Assembly (NCBI GenBank): GCA_945883435.1
Contig: CAMCXK010000020.1
Span: 1-45,159, forward strand
DNA: 45,159 nt
Source of the DNA: Chthoniobacter flavus
GTDB taxonomy: Bacteria; Verrucomicrobiota; Verrucomicrobiia; Chthoniobacterales; Terrimicrobiaceae
Reading direction: 5' to 3'
Under the pieces are notes generated by a model, which was given only the letters and a program-made list of their open reading frames with translations, had not been told where the DNA came from and ran no database searches. Made by a program: the position numbers and the translations under genes. Positions 4,742-45,159 of the stretch are shown here, piece after piece; the stretch's first letter is position 1; each line of letters opens with the position of its first letter.

Positions 4742-4762
4742 TGCCTCGTGGTGTAACGGTAG
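4742..4762 (+). repeat. attL core: 21-bp copy of tRNA-Gln 5' end
   Basis: These 21 bases are identical to the first 21 bases of the tRNA-Gln at 34898. Identity stops at 4763. The following sequence does not fold as a tRNA, so this is the host 5' stub left by integration rather than a gene. The native tRNA promoter should lie to its left. Confidence 0.85.
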
Positions 4763-4862: not shown

Positions 4863-5942
4863 ATGGCTTTTTTGCGCACGACACCGAAATCCAGCTTTTG
4901 GATCCTCAAGTATCGCGATCTCGAGTCCGGCCGGTGGAGGGAGGTGAGCACGCGGTGCCGGATCGAGGATCCCAAGGAGACTCGGCGGGCGCAGCGGATG
5001 GCGGAGGATGCGAGCAAGAAGGAGGCACAGGCCGCGCCGCAGCAGGGCGCCTTCTGTGAGTGGACGGCCGCATACCTCGAGTCCCACTTTGCCAATGTGC
5101 GGTCGAGAAAGCGATACGATGTCGCTTGGCAGCGGTGCCTTGAGTGGATGCGGGGGAAAAATATCCGGCATCCCTCGGAAGTGCGATATGAGCATGCGGC
5201 GGACTTTATGGATTGGAGGAAGGCCAAGGGGGCGTCGCACAATACGGCGAGGCTTGAGCTGAAGCTTTTTTCCTTTGTCATGCAGGAGGCGCTACGACGG
5301 GAGATTTGTGTGAAAAACCCGCTGGCTTTGGCGAAGGTGCCTCGCACACCGGCAAAGCCGAAGAAGGAGTTGGACATCGAGGACTTTGCCTCCGCACGGG
5401 CGGCATTTGCCCCAAGAGCTCCTTGGATGCTGACGGTCTTTGAGATATGCGCCCACCTCGGCTGCCGGTTCAATGAAGCCGAGTTTGGCCAGGAAGATGT
5501 CGATTTCGGGCAGAAGATCATTTGGCTCACGGATTCAAAGCGGAAGGAGGGCGACCCTCGGAAACGCTATGCCGTCCCTTTGCCGGCAGGTTTGGAGGCG
5601 CATTTGCGAGGGGTTTTTTCCAGCCGACCGCGCACCAGTGGCAGACTGACCGGAGATCAGAATCGGGTTTTTAACTCCGTGCTGAAAGCCGCCTGCGGGG
5701 CGACCAGTCATTCCTTGCGGGTTTCCTTTGTGACGAGGTGTCATCGGGCGGGCCTCAGCGAGTCGCAAGCGATGCGGTTGGTGAACCACTCCACTCGGCT
5801 GGTCCATGCGGTTTACTCGAAGTTGAATCTTGATGATGCCCGGGCGGCTGCGGCCTTGGTGCCCCCGCCTGGTCTGCGAGAAAATCCCGCACCCAGCGCA
5901 CGGTCGTCTTCCGCCCGTAGAAGGGGCAGCCCTTGCGCTTGA
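4863..5942 (+). CDS. int: Tyrosine-type phage integrase
   Basis: A 359-residue site-specific recombinase that would insert and excise the prophage at the tRNA-Gln core. The N-terminal part is a SAM-like core-binding domain (about 60-150). The catalytic domain shows Arg202 (HLGCRFNEAEF), a beta-hairpin Lys region (227-234), His283 and Arg286 (SHSLRVSFV), His309 (LVNHST) and the nucleophile Tyr318 (VHAVYSKL). Its position 100 bases inside attL, reading into the prophage, is typical. The last 188 bases overlap an antisense gene, and that overlap covers the Tyr318 codon. The tail after residue 335 is low complexity and probably dispensable. Confidence 0.95.
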   Translation: MAFLRTTPKSSFWILKYRDLESGRWREVSTRCRIEDPKETRRAQRMAEDASKKEAQAAPQQGAFCEWTAAYLESHFANVRSRKRYDVAWQRCLEWMRGKNIRHPSEVRYEHAADFMDWRKAKGASHNTARLELKLFSFVMQEALRREICVKNPLALAKVPRTPAKPKKELDIEDFASARAAFAPRAPWMLTVFEICAHLGCRFNEAEFGQEDVDFGQKIIWLTDSKRKEGDPRKRYAVPLPAGLEAHLRGVFSSRPRTSGRLTGDQNRVFNSVLKAACGATSHSLRVSFVTRCHRAGLSESQAMRLVNHSTRLVHAVYSKLNLDDARAAAALVPPPGLRENPAPSARSSSARRRGSPCA

Positions 5943-12353: not shown

Positions 12354-12524
12354 TTAGTCGGAATCAGGTGTTGTTGCGTGGATGTATGGCTCCCGCTCCG
12401 ATGGTTTTTGCAAAGTAGTAATTTCGGCGTTCGGAGGCTCGCTGGCCTTGAAGGCTTTAGCTTCCTGCTGTGTCAAAAACTCGCGCCATCCTCCGTCAAA
12501 TGTAACTCGATATACAGTAATCAT
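12354..12524 (-). CDS. Small 56-residue protein after the tail fibre
   Basis: Starts at ATG 12524, where TAATG overlaps the fibre stop codon, and ends at TAA 12354. The product begins MITVYRVTFDGGWREFLTQQ and is acidic and Pro-rich toward its end. Tail-fibre genes are often followed by a small chaperone-like or tail-tip protein. No family recognised. Confidence 0.5.
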   Translation of the reverse strand: MITVYRVTFDGGWREFLTQQEAKAFKASEPPNAEITTLQKPSEREPYIHATTPDSD

Positions 12525-14857
12525 TAGTATTGCAAAGTGAAGCCCGTGTTGTAGAGCCGAACAAAAATCAGGTCCAAATCGAACTCCAAGGATGTCGTGT
12601 TGCTAGTGGATGTGCGGACTATCCCGGTTCCGTAGTTGACCCGGTTCGTTGGTCCACCCGGCAGAGCATAGAACGTGGCTTGAAGGCTTCCGTTGAAAAA
12701 GAAATCAACGGCATTGCCGTTGTCGTAAACGACCACCTCGTAAAGGTTCATTTCTCCAACGGCAGGCCGGAAACCTTGGTTGGTCACGTTTTCAAATCCG
12801 TTGGACACCACAACACATTGAAGATCTTCGTCATTCACAATTCGGAAATACGCGCCGTTGACGGACGGGCCGTTGTAATTGTCGATGAAGCCCGAATACC
12901 ACAACCCCGTTACCAATCCGCTCGGCAACTGGAAGAACGCGCATCGGCTTGTGAAGATGTGTTTTGGAGCCCGCAAAAAATCGACGGCATTTTCGTTGAC
13001 TTGATCGACGCCCATAGTGCTGTGCGCCACTACCGCCGATGTGCCCGTTGCCAACGTGACAACGCCTGTCGAGTTGTAAGTCCGAGAAGCCAGAGAGGAG
13101 GCCGACGATCCACCGCCACCCGTCAGGTTTCGCAGATTGTTCAGCGCAAGGTTCCCCTGCATGAAATGCTCGAAAAGCGTGTAGGCTTGCTGGTCGGCAA
13201 TGCCAAGACTCGCCCGCGCCGCTTCCGTTGTGTTTGCTCCTGTGCCGCCTTTCGCAATCGGAAGAACGGTGATAGCAGGCTCCGCACCGATCTGCGCGGC
13301 TGTTACTTGGTGCGGGTTGTTAGTGTCCGCAATGTGATTTTCGATCTGCGCCCCAACGGCAGCCGTCGCGGTCGCATTGCTGGCCGTGCGGTTCTGCAAC
13401 TTTCCAAGCGCAACCAAAACTGAATCCGTTGCGGCAACCGCGGCGCCACTGGTAGTTTGCAAACCCGTCAGAACAGTCGAGCGAACCCTGGCATCGGTAA
13501 AGTAGCGGTTCGACGATCCTTCGGTGATCCCGTCTGTGGTCGGCTTGTCGGTGATGCCGTTCCACGATGTTGTTCCTGCCGGGCCGGTCTCACCCTGTAA
13601 GCCTTGTGGTCCTTGCGGTCCCTGCACACCTTGCGGGCCTTGAGGTCCGGTCTCCCCTTGGATGCCTTGCAGAGCTTGCGGCCCCTGCGGTCCAACCTCG
13701 CCTTGAATTCCTTGCGGCCCCTGCGGTCCCTGTGGGCCTGTCGCCCCGGCAGGACCTTGAACACCTTGAATCCCCTGCGGTCCCTCAGCCCCGACCGCGC
13801 CAGAAAGGTTCACTGCCCAAGAGGAAAATGTGCCATCTCCGTCTTTGTGTTTGATGGCAACTACAAGCTCCCCGGTTGCCGGGTTGTAGCTGTCCACCTC
13901 GCCGTGCATGTGGTTGGCGATGTCGTGCGAGATCAGAACCGCTTGGTTTGTCGAATAGGAAAGCCCGGTGCCAATCGTGAGCGTGACAGTGCCGGTGTTG
14001 GCAATCGTCAGTGTGGTGCTCGATGTGGTCTGGTATTTGTCGCCAGCCTCGCCACGCTCGCCCTGAATGCCCTGCGGCCCCTGCGGTCCAACTGGTCCTT
14101 GAATGCCCTGCGGACCTTCCGGACCGACAAACGAATACGGGTTCCAGTAAACGCCGACGCCTTCGGTCGGAAGGATCGCGTCGTTGTCCGCGATGCAAAT
14201 CCAGTATTGGCCGGCGTAATAGACGACCTCGTTGACTTTGTATTGATCGGCCAGCACACGAGACGGCGAGAACTCGAAGCCGCCCCATCCGCGAACGCCC
14301 TGCGGGCCTTGAATGCCCTGCACACCTTGAATGCCCTGCGGTCCAACTTCTCCTTGGATGCCCTGCACCCCTTGAATGCCTTGAGGCCCAACCGGGCCAA
14401 TCGGCCCCTGCGGGCCAACCTCTCCGGCGTCGCCCTTGACTCCTTGCGGGCCTTGGATGCCCTCAGCCCCTTGTGGACCCGTCTCGCCTTTGTCGCCCTG
14501 AATTCCCTGCTGCCCTTGAATCCCTTGTGGTCCGGTTGCGCCCGTATCGCCCTGTGGACCCTGTGGACCGGTTGGGCCTTGAACCAGAACGATCTGGCTC
14601 TCCGCTCCGTTTTCGTAGAAAATTGTCAACAGGTCGCTGTTTGCCATTCCGTCGAGATTGGCTTTTAATGTGATAACACTGTTTGCTCCTTGTTGGTATG
14701 ACGCGGCCCCCAAGGCAGATTCAGCCAGATTGTAGATGACCTGGTTGCGTGTCGCGTTGATTATCAGCAGCACGTAGTTAACCGGAACATTCAGCTCCGT
14801 CAGCGTGACGGTTTTGGCGGCAGCGTCAAAGGAGTAGTTGGTGGCGAGTTGTTTCAT
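12524..14857 (-). CDS. Collagen-like tail fibre protein
   Basis: 777 residues. The N-terminal part (1-90) likely attaches to the tail. Three blocks of Gly-X-Y triplets, mostly GPQ and GIQ, follow (about residues 93-195, 240-275 and 357-430), predicted to form a collagen triple helix in a trimeric fibre. A region with IADTNNPHQVTAAQIGA, a common tail-fibre repeat motif, follows. The C-terminal 200 residues are beta-rich (FRIVNDEDLQCVVVSNGFEN), like a lectin or concanavalin-type receptor-binding head. It should mediate host recognition. Start overlaps the previous gene by ATGA. Confidence 0.88.
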   Translation of the reverse strand: MKQLATNYSFDAAAKTVTLTELNVPVNYVLLIINATRNQVIYNLAESALGAASYQQGANSVITLKANLDGMANSDLLTIFYENGAESQIVLVQGPTGPQGPQGDTGATGPQGIQGQQGIQGDKGETGPQGAEGIQGPQGVKGDAGEVGPQGPIGPVGPQGIQGVQGIQGEVGPQGIQGVQGIQGPQGVRGWGGFEFSPSRVLADQYKVNEVVYYAGQYWICIADNDAILPTEGVGVYWNPYSFVGPEGPQGIQGPVGPQGPQGIQGERGEAGDKYQTTSSTTLTIANTGTVTLTIGTGLSYSTNQAVLISHDIANHMHGEVDSYNPATGELVVAIKHKDGDGTFSSWAVNLSGAVGAEGPQGIQGVQGPAGATGPQGPQGPQGIQGEVGPQGPQALQGIQGETGPQGPQGVQGPQGPQGLQGETGPAGTTSWNGITDKPTTDGITEGSSNRYFTDARVRSTVLTGLQTTSGAAVAATDSVLVALGKLQNRTASNATATAAVGAQIENHIADTNNPHQVTAAQIGAEPAITVLPIAKGGTGANTTEAARASLGIADQQAYTLFEHFMQGNLALNNLRNLTGGGGSSASSLASRTYNSTGVVTLATGTSAVVAHSTMGVDQVNENAVDFLRAPKHIFTSRCAFFQLPSGLVTGLWYSGFIDNYNGPSVNGAYFRIVNDEDLQCVVVSNGFENVTNQGFRPAVGEMNLYEVVVYDNGNAVDFFFNGSLQATFYALPGGPTNRVNYGTGIVRTSTSNTTSLEFDLDLIFVRLYNTGFTLQY
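13566..14580 (-). repeat. Degenerate 9-bp repeats encoding collagen Gly-X-Y blocks
   Basis: Tandem units such as CCTTGCGGTCC on the plus strand occur at roughly 13580-13790, 14060-14125 and 14290-14580. They encode the fibre collagen blocks and are not a CRISPR. Such repeats can expand and contract by recombination and so change fibre length. Confidence 0.85.
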
Positions 14858-15447
14858 GCGAGGGCTATGGAAAGAGCGAGGGCCGTATTTTTTCGAAAGT
14901 AGAGATCGTCGTGAGAGTGCGGAGCCGTGGGTTTATTTGTGACTTGCTCCTCGATGGCCTGCGCGGTGCGCAGCGGGGTCATCCAGCGCTCGTTGTCGGT
15001 GCCTGCTTCGGCTTGGGATTGGGTCGCTTTTCCGTCTGGGACGGCTTCGGGGGTGGCCTCGGTGCCGAGGATGACGCTGTTTTGCACCTCCGCCTGGAGC
15101 GTGGCCGTGCGGGTGGTCTCGCCGGGGACGGCCCAGCGGATTTCGAGGAGGGCGGAGATGGCGGCGGGATTGCCTGCGGAGAAGATGGCCTCGAGGGGGA
15201 CTGTGTTAAGGTTTAATGTGGGTGGTTCCCCAGAGGCCAGAGCGAGGAAATTGGAGTCTGCAAAGGTGCGCTTGAGCGCGATCGAGCTCGTGGTGCCGAC
15301 CGGCATGGTAGCCACGGCGTTGCGGGAGACGAAGACGATCTCGACGGCGAGGCTGTCGCAGCGCTTGAGCACGACCCGCTCGAGGGCGACATTCGATGCC
15401 GCGCTCTTGACGAGCTGTTTTTTGGAGAGGTCGACGAAAAATTTCAT
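14854..15447 (-). CDS. Tail-fibre-associated (baseplate or fibre connector) protein
   Basis: 197 residues starting MKFFVDLSKKQLVKSAASNV. The C-terminus has QSQAEAGTDNERWMTPLRTA followed by QAIEEQV, a motif widely seen in tail-fibre proteins of dsDNA phages. The N-terminal half is beta-rich. ATGA overlap with the collagen-like fibre gene suggests the two are made together and may form one fibre assembly. Confidence 0.65.
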   Translation of the reverse strand: MKFFVDLSKKQLVKSAASNVALERVVLKRCDSLAVEIVFVSRNAVATMPVGTTSSIALKRTFADSNFLALASGEPPTLNLNTVPLEAIFSAGNPAAISALLEIRWAVPGETTRTATLQAEVQNSVILGTEATPEAVPDGKATQSQAEAGTDNERWMTPLRTAQAIEEQVTNKPTAPHSHDDLYFRKNTALALSIALA

Positions 15448-15506
15448 GCCGCTGAACCAGCGGCAGGTGTCAAATCACGCTTCCGAGCGGCTCCGCAGGG
15501 GCGGGA

Positions 15507-16571
15507 TCAGACGCTCACGAAAGGCTGGGTGCGGACGCGGAGGTGGCCCCGGTGCTCGCCTTCGAGCTCGTGGTAGGCGCGGTGGTGAAGGATTTCCGGA
15601 GAGTCGGCCGGGGCGTCGGGCGATTTGCGCTTGATGTGGTCGCAGGCGATGTGGGGCACACAGGCGATCCTCAGGCCGGCCGGGGCCCAGCGGTGCCAGC
15701 ACAGAAAGAGGTCCTGGGTGCCCTTGCCCTCGTAGCCGGTGAAGTCGGCGTGGGCGAGGGCGCGGCGGGAGAGCAGCGTGCAGCCGAGGCCGCACCAGTC
15801 CGAGGGCACGATAGCCCCGCGACCGATGCCTGGGTAGGCGAAGTCCAGCCAGCCACGGCGGCGCCAGCCATGCTTGGCGGTGACCTCCCAGATATTGCCA
15901 TCCGGCGGGCAGGCTTTGATGCGCTCGCGCAGACGGCCCAGGCGCCGATGCTCTCGATCGGCCAGGCGGTGGGTGGCCTCGGCTTCAGCTATGTTTTCGG
16001 GGCGTTTGAGAGATTTCAGGCGGGCTTCGCAGGCTTCCAGCACCAGGCGCAGGCGGGGCGGCAGGCGGCGTTCGGCGGGCAGGAAGTCCTCGGCGATCTG
16101 GTGGGTCTGCGAGCCGAAGCCTCCCAGGAAAAGCCCGTTCGGGTAGGTGGCGGCGGCGATGTCGTAGTGTGGCTGGCCGTCGGCGGTCGGCATCGAGAGA
16201 GTCCACTCGAGCACGCGGAGAGCATCGGCGGGAATGATCGTGTCGCTTTCGACGACCAGGCAGCGGGTGGCGCGGATTTTCCGTGCAAACGCGAAGGCGG
16301 CACCCTGGAGCGCGGCGATGCGGAGCTGGGCGGCCTCTTTGTAGCGCGTCGAGGCGTCGTCTTTGATCGGCAGGTTGAGCACGGTGACTTTCCAGCCCTC
16401 GGGGAGTTCGCGGGTGGCCACCTCAGCGGCGGCTTTGGCTTCCCGGCTTTCGTCCGTGGCCAGTATAAAATGGGCCTCAGAGAGGTGCCAGGCGGCGGCG
16501 GCGACGGCGCGCACGCATTGCGGGAATGCGTAGAGGTAGCTGCGGGTGGCGGCGACGGTGATGGCGATCAT
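15507..16571 (-). CDS. Prophage glycosyltransferase, GT-A fold
   Basis: 354 residues. N-terminal strand-helix pattern of a nucleotide-sugar-binding GT-A domain (MIAITVAATRSYLYAFPQCV...), then LVVESDTIIP, whose E-S-D at 108-110 is the DxD-like metal site. Later GRGAIVPSDWCGLGCTLLSR and a YEGKGTQDLFLCWHRW acceptor-side segment. No signal peptide or membrane anchor, so it acts in the cytoplasm. Its start overlaps the stop of the Thr-rich gene (ATGA). A role in glycosylating a virion protein, most simply its neighbour, is an inference. Alternatively it could alter host surface sugars. Confidence 0.75.
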   Translation of the reverse strand: MIAITVAATRSYLYAFPQCVRAVAAAAWHLSEAHFILATDESREAKAAAEVATRELPEGWKVTVLNLPIKDDASTRYKEAAQLRIAALQGAAFAFARKIRATRCLVVESDTIIPADALRVLEWTLSMPTADGQPHYDIAAATYPNGLFLGGFGSQTHQIAEDFLPAERRLPPRLRLVLEACEARLKSLKRPENIAEAEATHRLADREHRRLGRLRERIKACPPDGNIWEVTAKHGWRRRGWLDFAYPGIGRGAIVPSDWCGLGCTLLSRRALAHADFTGYEGKGTQDLFLCWHRWAPAGLRIACVPHIACDHIKRKSPDAPADSPEILHHRAYHELEGEHRGHLRVRTQPFVSV

Positions 16572-18775
16572 GGCATTCCGTCATCAAGCAAACTTTGAGT
16601 AAATACCCCATATCCCTGAACTATTGGTATATAACTGGAAATTGTAATAGGAACTTCCCCGTTCAAATCGTCTGTGTAAGTAGTCCCAGTAGGATATTGA
16701 GTTGAACCTGTTCCAGAACTTTGTCCGTCATAAGTTGTCAGTAGTATTATAGCCCCAGCCGACACAATTATGGTGTTGGAAGCGTTGGGAGTGAAAAACC
16801 CTCCTCTGATACTCCCCGCAACCACTTCCGCTCCAACTCTTGCTTCAACAAATGAGTTTATGGTAAATGATCCGCTGGATGTTGTATTTTGTGTAATTGT
16901 TCCTGTAACGGTTTTATATACAATAGTCGTTGTAAAACTTTCCCCTATGCGCGATCCATTCACGGTAGTATATTCTGCTGTGTCGCAAAGTTCCCAACCT
17001 TCCAAATCTTTGTAAATTAAGCCGGAAAATTTAGGATAGAGGGGGACGGCCCCAACAACGCCCGGCATGATGTTTCCGCGTTCGATTTCTCGACCCCATG
17101 TGTGTTGCGCGTTGTCAGACATAAACGCGCCTAAAGTAGAGTGTGTATTGTCGGTGATGAAATCAAGGGAAGGATTTGCTAACCCGTGACCTTGAAAATT
17201 TTGGTGGGCAAATCTAACAATTTCTGCCCCATTTATTTTACTTGTTGAATACCCAAGTTTAGAAAAAAAGCTACCTATCTTTTTATTTCCCCACTCGAAT
17301 GTAGTTGCACCATCCTGCTTTTCGGGAAAAGGCACTTTGACTTCGCCTTTCTCTTCATCCTGTGAATAAGTAAAAGTTATACGGTCTACCTTATGTGTGG
17401 AGGTTCTTTGTGTCGATATAAACCAAGTATGCTCAAAATCCACATTGCTGGACGTATTTGTAATAAAACTGGTTTTATCGTTAGGAAGATGAAAGAATCG
17501 TTTATTGCCACTCCCTGTTGTTGACCACGGGAACACATCTTGATCTACCAATCCGGGCCAATCTTGCGACGACACAGTTAAAAGACCGCCAGTCGTAAAA
17601 AATGTTGAGGTTTCTATAGATTCCGTGTTTTCAACATAATACGTTCTTGTTCTTATCTCTTTTGGCCCCCCTGCGCCATACCTCCCTGTCCACCATCCAA
17701 ACCTGTCATAAAGAGTTGTTTCTGATTCTCCATAATAAGTTTCAGTCGTAGTAGTTGTCGTATCGACAACAGTATCGCTTGTAGTCGTCGTAAAAAATCC
17801 CATCTGATACGAAACAGGGGTTGTTCTTGTTACATTGTCAGAAACTGTATATTGATACGAGTTTCCTTCGTCGTCTATTTCTTCATAAACAGTAAACCCT
17901 GTTCTATTTGAGCAGCTTCGAGTTTCGTATGATCCGTAGTAGCTTAAAAAAGTTTCTTCAACCCAAGTAGACGTGGTTGTTTCATGGCCACTTATTATTG
18001 TAGATGTGGTTGTAACGCTTTTTGTGGATAAACTTTCATCACGCACATTGATTGTTTTTATGTAGAGTTCCTTAAAAGAGTGCGTAAACCGTGTCGGTAA
18101 ATAAGATAGTTCTGTTACTGGTTTATTTGATGTGGGGGAGTCAAAAGTAGCTGCATTAAGAGCTTCATAAATAGTGTGCGCGATCACCTCCACATTCCCG
18201 TCAAGTGCTGTGTATGTAAGGAGTTCGACTTCTTCTCCTTCAATAATAATGGTTCTGGTTTTTTCGGTAATAACATATGTAGCAACTGTTTTTTCAATTT
18301 CTTTAGTGTCCTGAAAAAAATTTGTGATATTGTCAGTTATTCCGACTGTCCAAAAATAATCTAATTGCGGAATAGTTGTTGTCTGCCGCACATAATCTTC
18401 ATAAGATTCGGTTGCTGTGGTTTGCTGTCTTATTGTTAGTAACGGAGATGTTGAAACGGTGCTGTCTTCATAACTAGAATAAGTTGTAGAGTTCCTATCC
18501 ACACTTGTATAAAGTTGTGTGCGATATTCAGCACCGCCTCCTATCGTGGTTCTGGTGCCAAAAACCGCTTCGGCCCAATAAGTGGTTGCGAGAGAAGTAA
18601 GAACAGGAGAATATGTTCCTTTAACTACGCGATAATAACTGTTTGATTCTGTTTCGCGCCCCACAGTCCCTGGTCCCAATCTACTTGAGCTTTCAGATCC
18701 AGAAAAAGTAGAAATAATTTCACCTACAAAAGTTGGCAGAACTTTTGAAGTTGTATATGATAGCCAAGCAATCAT
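16568..18775 (-). CDS. Large Thr/Ser/Tyr-rich protein of strongly AT-rich composition
   Basis: 735 residues, no recognised family. The gene is visibly AT-rich (two sample lines of 60 bases are about 43% and 30% GC) against clearly GC-rich neighbours on both sides, with matching codon choice. The protein has Thr clusters (FFTTTTSDTVVDTTTTTTET), many Tyr/Ser pairs, little helix and few cysteines, like an extended beta-repeat virion protein. The second ATG (18775) is chosen because it overlaps the preceding stop as ATGA; its own stop overlaps the glycosyltransferase start. The position between baseplate-like and fibre genes suggests a tail-tip or side-fibre protein acquired by recent transfer. 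Confidence 0.8.
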   Translation of the reverse strand: MIAWLSYTTSKVLPTFVGEIISTFSGSESSSRLGPGTVGRETESNSYYRVVKGTYSPVLTSLATTYWAEAVFGTRTTIGGGAEYRTQLYTSVDRNSTTYSSYEDSTVSTSPLLTIRQQTTATESYEDYVRQTTTIPQLDYFWTVGITDNITNFFQDTKEIEKTVATYVITEKTRTIIIEGEEVELLTYTALDGNVEVIAHTIYEALNAATFDSPTSNKPVTELSYLPTRFTHSFKELYIKTINVRDESLSTKSVTTTSTIISGHETTTSTWVEETFLSYYGSYETRSCSNRTGFTVYEEIDDEGNSYQYTVSDNVTRTTPVSYQMGFFTTTTSDTVVDTTTTTTETYYGESETTLYDRFGWWTGRYGAGGPKEIRTRTYYVENTESIETSTFFTTGGLLTVSSQDWPGLVDQDVFPWSTTGSGNKRFFHLPNDKTSFITNTSSNVDFEHTWFISTQRTSTHKVDRITFTYSQDEEKGEVKVPFPEKQDGATTFEWGNKKIGSFFSKLGYSTSKINGAEIVRFAHQNFQGHGLANPSLDFITDNTHSTLGAFMSDNAQHTWGREIERGNIMPGVVGAVPLYPKFSGLIYKDLEGWELCDTAEYTTVNGSRIGESFTTTIVYKTVTGTITQNTTSSGSFTINSFVEARVGAEVVAGSIRGGFFTPNASNTIIVSAGAIILLTTYDGQSSGTGSTQYPTGTTYTDDLNGEVPITISSYIPIVQGYGVFTQSLLDDGMP

Positions 18776-19401
18776 TGAAATAAAATTTGATACCACCGAT
18801 CCACGCCGGGAACGCCGGGAAGCGGGGCTTCGGTTTTATCAATGACAACCGCTTGGTTGAAAGTGACGCTGGGATTTCCGGGACCGAGGGTGCGATAAAC
18901 TATTCCTTCAAAAGTCAGGCCAAAGAGAACCCACGCCTCGGCGGGCAGTGCGGAAGGGACAATTCTTTGCACAGGCGGGTCGCTGGCATCGATGACGATC
19001 TGAACACTCGTAATCTGTTTGCCGTCAGTCAAACATTTTGCTTTCCATTTCTGAAGAGTAGCGGGAACGGTGAACGAGGCGAGTTCACCGTCGGCAAATA
19101 GGTTGGACGGCAAAAGACCAGCAACCGTTCCCGGCCAGACTTCGGCTTTGTAGCTGTTATATTTTCCTTCGTCGTCTGGTTCTCCCTCGCCACGCATATT
19201 GATGATGTCCCAGGGGCGCTTCTCCGAGGCGGCCGCGCCCCCGCTGCGCGTGGGCTTGAGCGAGACGACGGTGCCATTGAGCGTCTCGGTGAGCTTGATT
19301 CCCACGCCGGGGAGCACGCGGGCGCGCTTGAGGGCATCGACCAGGGCATTCAGGTCGGAGGCGTTGAGGGGGCTGCGTTTTTGGTAGGTGGGGTATTGCA
19401 T
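18772..19401 (-). CDS. Hypothetical tail or baseplate protein
   Basis: 209 residues from ATG 19401 (MQYPTYQKRSPLNASDLNAL). The N-terminal segment with LNALVDALKRARVLPGVGIK and a GTVVSLKP strand resembles small tail-tip proteins that carry short trimerising segments before beta domains. No firm family. GC content falls from its 5' to its 3' end, toward the AT-rich gene it overlaps by ATGA, so the border of the transferred block may lie inside this gene. Confidence 0.55.
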   Translation of the reverse strand: MQYPTYQKRSPLNASDLNALVDALKRARVLPGVGIKLTETLNGTVVSLKPTRSGGAAASEKRPWDIINMRGEGEPDDEGKYNSYKAEVWPGTVAGLLPSNLFADGELASFTVPATLQKWKAKCLTDGKQITSVQIVIDASDPPVQRIVPSALPAEAWVLFGLTFEGIVYRTLGPGNPSVTFNQAVVIDKTEAPLPGVPGVDRWYQILFQ

Positions 19402-20048
19402 CAGTCCGCGCCGTAGATGTCGGCATTCCAGCCCCGGGGGCCACTGGACATGTATTCGCGAGTGACCTCCCAGTTGTTGTCCGCATCTTGGCTGCCATCG
19501 ACGCCGGTCAAGAGCCAGTTGGCTCCGGCGGGCAACTCGGGCGCTTTCGTCGGGCTGGCGATTTTGCCGAGATCGGTCAAGGTGGGCTCGTCGGTATTCG
19601 CATCGGTGACGCGGATCGAGATGCGCGGCTGGAGGTAGTCGGTGAACCCGCGCAGGTAGAGCGCGACGAATTTCTGAAAGCCTTCGCCGTAGCTGGTGAG
19701 ATTCTCGGCGGCGATGTCGGTGCCTTCCTTCTGCCACTTGTCCCATTTTTTCCACTCGTCGTCGCTGACTGCCCATTTGCCTTCGGGCTGGAAGTGCGGG
19801 TGGGTGGCCAGAGGTTCCTGGGAAGCTGTGCCCGAGAGAGAGTAGGTGTCGCCCACGGAATCGTCTACCTCGTCGTAGGTCAGCACGGCGCGGCCGTCGG
19901 CGAGGGATCGGCGCACATTGCGGATCTTCGAGCCCGAGGGCTTGGGGATGGCGTCGATGCTGCTGGCTCCGACTTCCTCGAGGGTCACGCTGGTGACTCC
20001 CCGGTTGCGGTTGTTGACAGTTTTTTCGCGGCGGGTTTCGGCAGGCAT
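19401..20048 (-). CDS. Hypothetical tail protein
   Basis: 215 residues. Begins basic (MPAETRREKTVNNRNRGVTS), then an acidic, aromatic middle (DDEWKKWDKWQKEGTDIAAE) and a beta-rich end. It lies directly after the tape measure gene (one base apart), where distal tail or baseplate proteins are encoded. Its stop overlaps the next start (TGATG). Not recognised beyond context. Confidence 0.6.
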   Translation of the reverse strand: MPAETRREKTVNNRNRGVTSVTLEEVGASSIDAIPKPSGSKIRNVRRSLADGRAVLTYDEVDDSVGDTYSLSGTASQEPLATHPHFQPEGKWAVSDDEWKKWDKWQKEGTDIAAENLTSYGEGFQKFVALYLRGFTDYLQPRISIRVTDANTDEPTLTDLGKIASPTKAPELPAGANWLLTGVDGSQDADNNWEVTREYMSSGPRGWNADIYGAD

Positions 20049-20049
20049 A

Positions 20050-21636
20050 TCAGGAGAGGACGGGTTGAGGTGCCAGGCGGCCGATGCCGTCGGCGATGCG
20101 CTTCAGGAAGAGGGTCTGCTTGCGGCTCTCGTCGAGCAGCGCGGGGGCCCCGGCGACCGCGCCGCCCCCGCCGATCTTGGCGAGGCTGCTCGCGAAGAGA
20201 GGCTGGTTCGTGGCCTTGCCAGTCTCGGCTTCGTTCAAAGCCCCGAAGGCGGCTTGCAGGCCGCCGGGGGCGTTGGGCGCCGGGAGGGCGGCTTGAGCTT
20301 GGGTTTTCAGCGACTCCACGGTGTCGCCCAACCGGGCGAAGGTGCCGTCGAGATTCGACTGCACGCCGGAGAGGTCGACGAGATCGCCTGCCCCGGCAAA
20401 GCTTTCTTGAAACCCGCTGGCCAAGGCCCCCAGCGAAGCACTCATTCGGTCGCGGGCTTGCGCAAAGAAGGGGGCCAGGGCGTCCCCGCCGGACGTTAGA
20501 TTCTTGTCCGCCCCGGCTTGGAGATTTTGACCGGCCTGCGTGACGGCTTCCAGTGGACCTTTGAGTTTTTCACCGAGGCCGGGGATTTTGGAAAAGAGCG
20601 ACAGCGCCTTGGCCACGATGCCCAGCAACGCCGCGCCGAAGGCTTGAGCCGCGCCGATCAGTGCCGAGAGCATTCCTTTCCAGAAGTCCGGCTGGGTCAC
20701 GATGCCGAACAGAGTGACCGCATTTTGAACGATCTCGGGGATCAGGCGAGCGATCGCCCCGAAGACGCCAGAGAGGGAGCGAAAGAGAAAATTCACGGCA
20801 TTCCCCAGGGCGATGCGGATCGAGTCGCCCATGATCGACCAGATCGAGCCATCGGTCATGGCTTGGATGAACATGGCCGCCGCCGAACCGATCTGCTGGC
20901 CCAGGGCGGTGAAATCCATGGCGTTGAATTGCTCGAGCAGCGGCAGGATCGCCGGGGCGATGCTCTCCGCCATGCCCACGAAGACGCCCTGCAGCTTGTT
21001 GCTGGACGCGTTGATAAGGTCGGAGACGCGGTCGAAGATCGACGCATTCTGGTCCATGATCGCGGCTTGGCCGCCCAGCGTGTCGGCCGCCGTGGCAAGG
21101 GCCCCCGAGTCTCCGAAGAGGGTGAGCATCTTGCCCCCCGACTTGCCGAAGATCTCCATGGCCGTGGAGGCGCGTTCGGTGGGGTTGCCGATGCCGTTGA
21201 TCGCTTCGCCCAGAGTCTTGAATGCCTGGTCGGGGGCCATATTGGCGAGGTCGGTGGCATTCAGGCCCAGCTTGGCAAGGGCCTCCGCAGCGGGACCAGT
21301 GCCACTGGTGGCTGCGGCGAGGGCCTTCTGCATCTTGTTGATGGCAGGGCCCACTTGGTCCGCACCGATCCCCGCCTGGTCGAAGGCGGTGCGCAGCAGC
21401 ATGACCTTGCCGGCCGTCATGCCGGTCTGGCCTGCGACATCCGAGAGCAGGCCGCCCATATCAAGGGCCGCCTTCACACCGGCAGCCGCCCCCGCCAGAG
21501 CGGCAAAGGCCGCTGCGCCTGCGGCGGCGATGCCTGCCATGGCGGGCTTGAGCGAGGCCACCGAGGATTGGGTCTTTTTCAAGGCGGTTTGGAGCCCGGT
21601 ATCCTTCGCGCCCAATGTGACTGTTACATCTGCCAT
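20050..21636 (-). CDS. Tail tape measure protein
   Basis: 528 residues. Sets tail length and is thought to pass into the cell with the DNA. N-terminal coiled region (DTGLQTALKKTQSSVASLKP), very Ala/Gly-rich hydrophobic stretches (IAAAGAAAFAALAGAAAGVK; MLSALIGAAQAFGAALLGIV), and the family-typical early motif AFDQAGIGADQVGPAINKMQ ... LGLNATDLANMAPDQAFKTL. At this length it predicts a rather short tail: using about 1.5 angstrom per residue, near 80 nm (inference). Confidence 0.92.
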   Translation of the reverse strand: MADVTVTLGAKDTGLQTALKKTQSSVASLKPAMAGIAAAGAAAFAALAGAAAGVKAALDMGGLLSDVAGQTGMTAGKVMLLRTAFDQAGIGADQVGPAINKMQKALAAATSGTGPAAEALAKLGLNATDLANMAPDQAFKTLGEAINGIGNPTERASTAMEIFGKSGGKMLTLFGDSGALATAADTLGGQAAIMDQNASIFDRVSDLINASSNKLQGVFVGMAESIAPAILPLLEQFNAMDFTALGQQIGSAAAMFIQAMTDGSIWSIMGDSIRIALGNAVNFLFRSLSGVFGAIARLIPEIVQNAVTLFGIVTQPDFWKGMLSALIGAAQAFGAALLGIVAKALSLFSKIPGLGEKLKGPLEAVTQAGQNLQAGADKNLTSGGDALAPFFAQARDRMSASLGALASGFQESFAGAGDLVDLSGVQSNLDGTFARLGDTVESLKTQAQAALPAPNAPGGLQAAFGALNEAETGKATNQPLFASSLAKIGGGGAVAGAPALLDESRKQTLFLKRIADGIGRLAPQPVLS

Positions 21637-34897: not shown

Positions 34898-34918
34898 TGC
34901 CTCGTGGTGTAACGGTAG
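34898..34918 (+). repeat. attR core: 21-bp identity with attL
   Basis: The first 21 bases of tRNA-Gln, identical to 4742-4762. Because the shared part is the 5' end of the tRNA, the complete gene at this junction has a phage-side upstream region. A CATAAT at 34879-34884 is placed well for a -10 box, but no good -35 box was seen. Confidence 0.85.
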
Positions 34919-43393: not shown

Positions 43394-44923
43394 CTAAGTT
43401 AGTGGGGATTTGGGATGATTTTCGACGCCCACTTTTCGATGCGGGAGGGGTCCCATTTCTTTGCGGGGTTTTGTCATCAAGCGGTAGTTCTTTGGGCGGC
43501 GTTTTTTGACGTGGGGTTCACTTCTTCCTGGGCGAAGTGGAGTGAGATCCCGCGCGATGGTCAGCAGCATGTCATCTAACATGGCGTCGATTGTTTTTGG
43601 TTTCTTCTCCACGCCGCTCATTGCGTGGGCGAATTGGCGCAGGGTATCAAGGCAACCTTTGAAGGAAACGCGCTGCAGATTTACATCGTGAGTGAGTGCG
43701 GACTTCTGCATCACGCTTCGGACGAGGTTGTAGGCAATAAAGTGCATCCGCAGTTCGCGTTCGATCATGTGAGGGGAGCGGCATCTCAGGACATCCATCT
43801 TGAGATGAGCTTTAATCTCGCGGAAGTGGAGTTCGATGCCCCAGCGCCGCCCGTAAAGAGCGGCAAGATCCTCGGCGGGGATGGCTGCATCGGTGAGGGT
43901 TGTCACGAGTGTCACGCTTTGGGTTCGAAACCCCTTGTGAGCAACGCTGTAGCGGACAACGCGGACATCGAGGCTCTCGGGCAACGCGGCGAACTCTTCC
44001 TCTGTCATTTTTGGAGTGCGCTGAGCGGGGCGTTTCCAATTCACAAGCACATCAAAATGAGCTGCCTTTGGGAGGTGCTCACCAATCGCCTTACGGATCT
44101 TTTTTTCTGGCAAACGCATCAGAGAGTCCACTCCCTGGGCCTTCAATGACGCAAAGGAACCGAAGGAGCAAAATCCTCGGTTGGCCACGACGAGAGCGCC
44201 TTTTTCCAGATGGGGCCAGAGAGATTGAAAAAGTTTGCTTTCGTGGATATGACGATCTTCGTAAGCGGCCTTGATAAGGGCACCTGTAACCAGACAGAAA
44301 ATCCCAACCATGTTCATCGATGGGAACCCGCACCCGGGAGTCTGCAATTTGCTTTGAGGCCATTTCGCTTGGTTGAGTGCCGTATCGGGCATTGAAATGC
44401 CGGTTCCATCAACGAGTCTGACTTGCCGCCCATGCCAGAGATTCCCCTCTGGGATATGCTTTTGCATTCGATCAACGAGATGTGTGTTGATTTGATCCAA
44501 CATGTCGAGAGGGAGTTTGTTGCGGGCCTGGCAATAGGCGCTGGTGGCTTGGCTGATCGAAGGGCTTTTTCCGCTTGCCGATTTGCGAGTCAGGAAGGCC
44601 GAGAGGGAGCGAACCGCCTCGCGACAGGAGCCATCGGGCGTTTGAATTTGATGGAGAAAAGTCCAGAAAATGACATCCAAGGAAAAAATGCGACGGCGAG
44701 CCTTGATTCTAACTGCATTCTGAGAAAGCAGTTTATTTGGAATGTAGGAGCCAAAAACCTTGCGGAGATGGGAAAAAGAACTAGCTTGCGAGAACTTGTC
44801 AAAAGCCGCTGCTGCCTCTGAAGCTGGAGGTCTTCCAAAGAGAAGAGGACCGAAACATTTGAAGAAAGGAGTTGTATTGCTCACACAAAGGAACGTATAG
44901 TTACGATCATGCAAAGTAAACAT
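43394..44923 (-). CDS. IS4-family transposase with altered DDE triad
   Basis: 509 residues from ATG 44923; GTG 44884 is also possible. First catalytic Asp172 in VRLVDGTGISMPDT; the second position reads LVVANRGFCSF, with Asn248 (codon 44182-44180) where IS4 enzymes have Asp in a DRGF/DRAY motif; the Glu364 in YGRRWGIELHFREIK is kept as part of the Y-R-E-K signature. The frame is open throughout, but the Asn would be expected to abolish or greatly reduce cleavage. The GGCGCTAAG at the 3' end resembles IS4 group ends; the partner end is outside the window. Confidence 0.88.
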   Translation of the reverse strand: MFTLHDRNYTFLCVSNTTPFFKCFGPLLFGRPPASEAAAAFDKFSQASSFSHLRKVFGSYIPNKLLSQNAVRIKARRRIFSLDVIFWTFLHQIQTPDGSCREAVRSLSAFLTRKSASGKSPSISQATSAYCQARNKLPLDMLDQINTHLVDRMQKHIPEGNLWHGRQVRLVDGTGISMPDTALNQAKWPQSKLQTPGCGFPSMNMVGIFCLVTGALIKAAYEDRHIHESKLFQSLWPHLEKGALVVANRGFCSFGSFASLKAQGVDSLMRLPEKKIRKAIGEHLPKAAHFDVLVNWKRPAQRTPKMTEEEFAALPESLDVRVVRYSVAHKGFRTQSVTLVTTLTDAAIPAEDLAALYGRRWGIELHFREIKAHLKMDVLRCRSPHMIERELRMHFIAYNLVRSVMQKSALTHDVNLQRVSFKGCLDTLRQFAHAMSGVEKKPKTIDAMLDDMLLTIARDLTPLRPGRSEPHVKKRRPKNYRLMTKPRKEMGPLPHRKVGVENHPKSPLT

Positions 44924-45159
44924 AATTGTATTATGAATCAACATTTTCTGAAAGAAAAAGACGGACAAAAGCTACAAGGCCGCTTCCTCGAACTGCGAAA
45001 AGAACTATCCAATCTGGAATGGATAACCCATGGCAGTGTAACACCCAATCACCCAGGCAACTGGAGGTGGACAACAAAGGTCAAAGCGAAAACCGTCACT
45101 TTGTCACTCTCTGCGGAGCAAGCCGACCTCTTCAAAGAGGCTATCGCCGCCAACAGGAA
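44909..45159 (+). CDS. DUF6788-like protein, divergent from the transposase (partial)
   Basis: Open to the window end; at least 83 residues. From ATG 44909 or 44933 it reads LQGRFLELRKELSNLEWITH, GSVTPNHPGNWRWTTKVKAK, TVTLSLSAEQADLFKEAIAA. LEWI..GSV.......W.WT.K...KTV...LS..Q is the DUF6788 pattern, often found beside transposase genes. It may be an IS accessory or regulator; function unknown. Confidence 0.7.
   Translation, partial: MQSKHNCIMNQHFLKEKDGQKLQGRFLELRKELSNLEWITHGSVTPNHPGNWRWTTKVKAKTVTLSLSAEQADLFKEAIAANR

Follow-up and report, generated by a model that had tools for sequence, protein, structure and literature searches.

Serine-rich repeat adhesins, such as Fap1 and GspB, are Ser/Thr-rich surface proteins encoded beside their own glycosyltransferase. 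Glycosylation of virion proteins has been shown for few phages so far. Passages of three articles (PMC11256854, PMC11652166 and PMC12619734, citing Freeman et al. 2023) describe phage-encoded glycosyltransferases in the mycobacteriophages Che8, Rita and relatives, with O-linked glycans on the capsid and/or tail that have a shield role. Here we describe a two-gene locus in a 45,159-nucleotide stretch of Chthoniobacter flavus DNA (contig CAMCXK010000020.1, assembly GCA_945883435.1; the whole stretch is hereafter the window), in which a gene for a Thr-rich protein adjoins a gene for a glycosyltransferase (GT) of the GT-A type, within the tail module of an apparently intact prophage of about 30.2 kb. 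With moderate confidence, we propose that the pair is a cassette of siphovirus-like (pro)phages dedicated to the O-glycosylation of a virion protein, in which the enzyme stays constant and the acceptor is hypervariable. A first-pass annotation of the window had presented phage virion O-glycosylation as a new trait. That claim of novelty was set aside, as the same passages (PMC11256854, PMC11652166, PMC12619734) give mycobacteriophage capsid and tail glycosylation as established. No paper on a Thr-rich/GT phage pair was found in the open-access library that was searched.

The pair is arranged as follows.

16568-18775, reverse strand: Thr-rich hypervariable protein of 735 amino acids (aa), 17.3% Thr and 10.1% Ser.
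15507-16571, reverse strand: GT-A glycosyltransferase of 354 aa, assigned from its predicted fold and invariant residues.
16568-16571, reverse strand: ATGA stop/start overlap of the two genes, read directly in the sequence.

The first-pass annotation had described a GT-A enzyme next to a protein with Thr and Ser clusters, and this description holds: the two genes adjoin, Thr runs exceed those of shuffled sequences, and the enzyme has a predicted GT-A fold. The overlapping stop and start that it had also reported are real, but they do not serve as evidence of coupling. Overlaps of four bases of the same kind join the flanking gene p202 to the Thr-rich gene (18772-18775) and the flanking gene p197 to a collagen-like fibre gene (14854-14857), and the overlap is therefore uninformative on pairing and signals only a tightly packed operon. 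Translational coupling was dropped as an argument for the pair.

Searching with the GT yielded 91 viral stretches; 80 were retained. Viral contigs and genomes together gave 88 GT loci, one of which (L008) was unassessable since its sequence ends at 140 bp. A Thr/Ser-rich gene is directly adjacent to the GT in 86 of the 87 assessable loci, upstream in 75 and convergent in 11, with the reservation that many rows are related phages and the counts overstate independence. By comparison, 46 of 289 other open reading frames (ORFs) of at least 330 aa pass the same composition threshold. The first-pass annotation had asked whether the GT is found mostly without such a partner; the opposite was the case. 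The sole assessable locus lacking an adjoining Thr/Ser-rich gene is L084, a Planctomycetota contig. A second candidate exception, L085, was withdrawn because its partner is masked by a longer ORF in another frame. Partners in the viral stretches are Thr/Ser-rich proteins of 438-858 aa. In seven contigs (L015, L016, L020, L022, L024, L029 and L079) the GT is inverted relative to the tail module and still abuts the Thr-rich gene, now convergently. The same order recurs in G303, a genome elsewhere in the phylum, with a partner of 660 aa and 19% Thr, and the pair is also present in genome G028. Named GT-bearing genomes include Opitutales, Rariglobus, Planctomycetota and Burkholderiales/Betaproteobacteria metagenome-assembled genomes, and the hosts of these siphovirus-like (pro)phages are probably mostly Verrucomicrobiota.

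Relatives were also sought with two single proteins not chosen by the GT, which were used as anchors. These recovered 24 contigs in which the GT has a Thr-rich partner, as well as three distinct phages without the GT; the GT-less relatives hold a different protein in the slot. One of them, L166, otherwise resembles the window phage closely (p266 93%, terminase 83%, tape measure protein 73%). Its slot (14759-16546) encodes an unrelated 595-aa protein with 9% Thr and a Cys-rich N-terminus, MPECNDPDRTLPCAECC, for which no relatives were found, and no GT was found in the whole 57.5-kb record. The slot proteins of the GT-less L184 and L172/L173 have 287 aa with 7% Thr and 228 aa with 13% Thr, respectively. 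Co-absence of the GT and the Thr-rich gene gives a Fisher p of 3e-4, or 9e-3 with L172 counted as Thr-rich; both values are nominal because the rows are related. This pattern bears on the idea that the substrate of the GT is phage DNA, glycosylated (hypermodified) as a defence, for which a precedent exists in the DNA-modifying phage GTs cited in a passage of PMC12619734. The close relative that lacks both the GT and the Thr-rich gene nevertheless retains terminase and replication genes, no DNA-modifying enzyme was seen adjacent to the GT, and the GT lies in the tail module beside a structural gene. We consider DNA as the substrate highly improbable.

While the enzyme is constant, its partner is exchanged. 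The first 67 partners fell into 34 BLAST clusters. Iterative hidden Markov model (HMM) searches with a reversed-sequence control united 42 of 76 partners; without bias correction reversed sequences score equally well, and such HMM matches were discarded. The window family in this analysis comprises only the window protein, L049 (45% identity) and L010, and a single ancestry for all partners was accordingly abandoned. A single-sequence homology search with the Thr-rich protein returned nothing, its relatives being reached only via the GT. GT identity is 96.5% between L004 and L049 and 95.5% between L003 and L006, yet the respective partners are no closer than shuffled sequence (z 1.7 and z 1.6). 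At GT identities of at least 85%, 331 of 560 pairs have partners at z below 6 relative to shuffled sequence. Flanking genes keep their synteny while the partner changes. Because the partner is swapped for an unrelated Thr-rich protein at about 96% GT identity, the GT probably recognises Thr-rich segments generally, not one sequence. A diversity-generating retroelement was rejected as the source of this variation and is not indicated, since a search that detected its controls found no reverse transcriptase (PF00078) in the genome that holds the window, nor in 14 viral records of relatives, some of which may be fragments.

Base composition also sets the partner apart. From 16568 to 19176 the sequence is shifted towards AT, with a GC content of about 40% in the Thr-rich gene within a phage of 60% GC; the shift begins inside p202 and ends sharply at the GT start. 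GC at third codon positions is 0.31 in the Thr-rich gene versus 0.84 in the GT of the window, and it is lower in the Thr-rich gene in 66 of 66 loci. The C-terminal half of p202 and the Thr-rich gene probably move together, as the shifted segment starts within p202.

In Pfam, PHROG and NCBIfam scans, no family match of the GT reaches the curated cut-off. Its match to Pfam PF13641 (E 0.012, 16.1 bits) is below the cut-off of 27, and weak PF13641 matches were obtained for 13 of 34 GT relatives, the best at E 4e-5. An AlphaFold (AF2) model built from 34 sequences has a predicted local distance difference test score (pLDDT) of 84.6, and its closest structural neighbour is human collagen galactosyltransferase COLGALT1 (Foldseek E 3e-9; VIA Z 18.6, root-mean-square deviation 3.5, 240 residues). 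The model has 88 PDB matches at E of at most 1e-3, and the top 50 listed are nearly all GT-A enzymes; VIA comparisons gave Z values of 16.7-18.6. The predicted structure supports a GT-A enzyme despite the sub-threshold Pfam score. Residues D110, W259, D287, H307 and H312 are invariant in the 34 aligned GT sequences. A putative metal-binding DxD-type motif, [ED]-[SA]-D, which ends in the invariant D110, occupies positions 108-110 and aligns with the DAD of COLGALT1, and a candidate catalytic acid is retained among the invariant residues. The GT has no transmembrane segment (maximum Kyte-Doolittle value 1.08) and is predicted to be soluble. The ratio of nonsynonymous to synonymous substitution rates is about 0.2 relative to L004 and L049, indicating purifying selection, and judged from its sequence the enzyme looks active and under selection.

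The nearest fold being that of a protein-modifying enzyme supports a protein-modifying role. The fold does not fix the acceptor, because the scores of Mnn9 and of several polysaccharide GTs differ from that of COLGALT1 by less than one Z unit. The resemblance to COLGALT1, which extends to a weak sequence match, also raises the possibility that the substrate is the collagen-like tail fibre encoded two genes downstream of the GT (12524-14857), modified as by collagen galactosyltransferase or as in glycosylated bacterial collagen-like proteins, with the Thr-rich protein incidental. Among 49 GT loci with adequate flanks, however, only 15 have collagen-like repeats, mostly of 24-36 aa, whereas the Thr-rich gene adjoins the GT in 86 of 87, and of the 207 residues in the triplet stretches of the window only 9 are Thr and 3 are Lys. 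The fibre is a poor candidate target, and we regard this explanation as very unlikely.

Thr averages 16.3% (range 11.5-22.6) in 51 non-redundant partners. Runs of three or more Thr number 200 in these representatives versus 121 in shuffles, which is above chance; the window protein has such runs, e.g., TTTTTT at residue 339. Relative to neighbouring structural proteins, the partners contain about 1.8 to 2 times as much Tyr, Thr and Ser, with no enrichment of Val or Ile. In homologous partner pairs, Thr identity is 0.597 versus 0.435 overall (1.37x), compared with 1.00x in neighbouring structural proteins. The Thr excess persists after an approximate hand correction for abundance, (0.597-0.175)/0.825 = 0.51 versus about 0.39 for all residues. 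Ser conservation is 1.06 in partner pairs versus 0.66 in neighbouring structural proteins, and in one partner family Thr accounts for half of the 20 most conserved columns. Thr conservation fits modification sites, and also the Thr ladders of a beta fibre.

This last point underlies the strongest rival explanation. In it, the Thr-rich protein would carry no modification and serve as a beta-rich fibre or receptor-binding protein, its Thr, Ser and Tyr being structural, and the GT would be a syntenic neighbour with some other target, such as a surface glycan of the host (seroconversion) or a different virion protein. A model of the Thr-rich family is all-beta with long strands, as that explanation would have it, but its confidence is low (pLDDT 51), its best Foldseek match is E 0.19, with no fold match, and the fold was left uninterpreted. 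A Thr autocorrelation of 1.22 at lag 2 likewise agrees with structural Thr, whereas the absence of Val/Ile enrichment and the preferential conservation of Thr do not. For the enzyme, the wall-glycan enzymes TarP, TarS and RmlT are among the GT-A fold neighbours, and serotype-altering phage GTs are known (PMC12619734). The GT of the window, however, is encoded in the tail module and has no membrane segment; it stays by the Thr-rich gene through inversion, and both genes are absent together. Typical seroconversion clusters are membrane-linked. Taken together, a structural origin of the Thr richness with an unrelated role for the GT appears unlikely.

A cupin gene, before or after the GT and usually abutting it, was found in about 43 viral contigs (e.g., L016:9576-10004, L136:469-906 and L051:11706-12131). 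The cupin-GT clade was dismissed as a Thr-free exception to the pairing, as its Thr-rich gene lies on the opposite strand, convergent with the GT. The cupin matches PF14667 above its cut-off (2.3e-9) and PF00908 and FdtA below theirs. It weakly resembles dTDP (deoxythymidine diphosphate)-sugar isomerases, including QdtA, with the PDB dTDP sugar isomerase 3ejk at E 9e-4. Its presence speaks for a sugar-nucleotide role of the module, and the phages that carry it may use a deoxy- or keto-sugar. No sugar-nucleotide gene was found among the window ORFs scanned, and the window phage, which lacks the cupin, probably relies on host sugar. The description of the pair as "self-contained" in the first-pass annotation is consequently not supported.

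If the Thr-rich gene and the GT are an O-glycosylation cassette, the Thr-rich protein, whose gene follows p202, would be a tail-tip or fibre protein that is large, hypervariable and probably rich in beta structure. The soluble GT would act in the host cytoplasm during virion assembly, taking a sugar from a host nucleotide sugar and attaching it to hydroxyl groups of Thr, and of Ser and possibly Tyr, in the neighbouring protein. The tail would thereby gain a variable structure coated with sugar. Such a coat could hide the protein from host defences or from proteases, or could stabilise it or tune receptor binding. More tentatively, selection may keep Thr density and a low-specificity GT while leaving the scaffold sequence free, yielding a mucin-like, variable, sugar-coated tail used for adhesion or for escape from host surface defences.

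Several points weigh against the cassette. We infer both the glycosylation of the Thr-rich protein and its position in the virion. In a beta-rich fibre the abundance of Thr, Ser and Tyr could have a structural cause, as the all-beta family model allows, and the similarity of the GT-A fold reaches polysaccharide and teichoic-acid GTs. In L172/L173 the GT is absent but the slot keeps a short protein of moderate Thr content, which by composition alone passes a loose threshold and is a partial exception. The cupin is absent from the window, adjacency can be maintained by tail-module synteny instead of function, and relatedness among the phages means that the loci are fewer independent observations than they appear. 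Nonetheless, the comparison of genomes points towards one specific pairing of enzyme and acceptor that recurs in dozens of uncultured phages, the enzyme being conserved and the acceptor replaced as a whole yet remaining Thr-rich. If the proposal is true, the pair would constitute a compact two-gene protein O-glycosylation system testable in E. coli, a way to spot phage glycoproteins from sequence, and a testable glycan role in phage adsorption.

The remaining features of the prophage are given below.

4742-34918, no strand: prophage extent, with the 21-bp direct repeat TGCCTCGTGGTGTAACGGTAG at both ends.
4863-5942: integrase, inside the prophage.
20050-21636, reverse strand: tape measure protein (phrog_9483, E 2.7e-23).
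19401-20048, reverse strand: p215, conserved tail-module protein kept among GT loci.
18772-19380, reverse strand: p202, conserved protein directly upstream of the Thr-rich gene, from alignment and a tblastn match in most GT loci.
14854-15447, reverse strand: p197, conserved protein downstream of the GT, from anchor/synteny comparison.
12524-14857, reverse strand: collagen-like tail fibre (PF01391, E 4.7e-31; PHROG tail fibre).

The repeat copies lie at 4742-4762 and 34898-34918, the second being the 5' end of a tRNA-Gln gene, and are likely attachment sites. Also inside the prophage are primase-like genes, a GpA-type terminase, a lambda-type portal, a ClpP-like protease and an endolysin. Tail-tip and fibre genes usually sit downstream of the tape measure gene, and the order p215, p202, Thr-rich gene, GT, p197 is found directly 3' of it. 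The Thr-rich protein is a probable tail-tip or fibre protein and the proposed glycan acceptor. Its ORF starts at the ATG at 18775, an alternative GTG at 18796 giving 742 aa, and it has no Pfam, PHROG or NCBIfam match. Its N-terminus is MIAWLSYTTSKVLPTF, and the strongest hydrophobic 19-mer (1.37) is at residue 661 in a hydropathy scan; no tandem repeat was reported within 16568-18775. The collagen-like fibre has Gly-X-Y stretches with abundant GPQ and GIQ triplets and globular segments between them. Elsewhere in the window, a DDE transposase (43394-44968) lies a few kb from a host leucyl-tRNA synthetase gene.

The isolate with the best-covered match to the tape measure protein (27.7% identity), Verrucomicrobia phage P8625, has a similar head and tail gene order; it differs in having no GT match, and its gene after the tape measure encodes 334 aa with 10.5% Thr. 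COLGALT1 (PDB 9evj) is the closest fold to the GT, with a weak sequence match over the N-terminal GT-A half, but its identity to the GT is 12% and many other GT-A enzymes lie within one Z unit. The locus resembles those of serine-rich repeat adhesins in that a Ser/Thr-rich protein gene is next to a dedicated GT. Unlike these adhesins, the Thr-rich protein has no tandem repeats; no signal peptide is evident from its hydropathy, and its context is intracellular phage assembly, not secretion. With three queries, no tblastn match to the GT was found at E 0.01 in 50,697 phage records; there is accordingly no detectable homology to mycobacteriophage GTs, although the enzymes may be distantly homologous. 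The likeness to mycobacteriophage virion O-glycosylation, as far as the cited passages describe it, lies in a phage-encoded GT, here in a prophage tail module. The mycobacteriophage acceptors given there are the capsid and tail-tube C-termini, and the Maravista GT genes are near the 3' end of the genome, whereas the GT described here lies in the tail module and abuts a large, hypervariable, Thr-rich tail-module protein.

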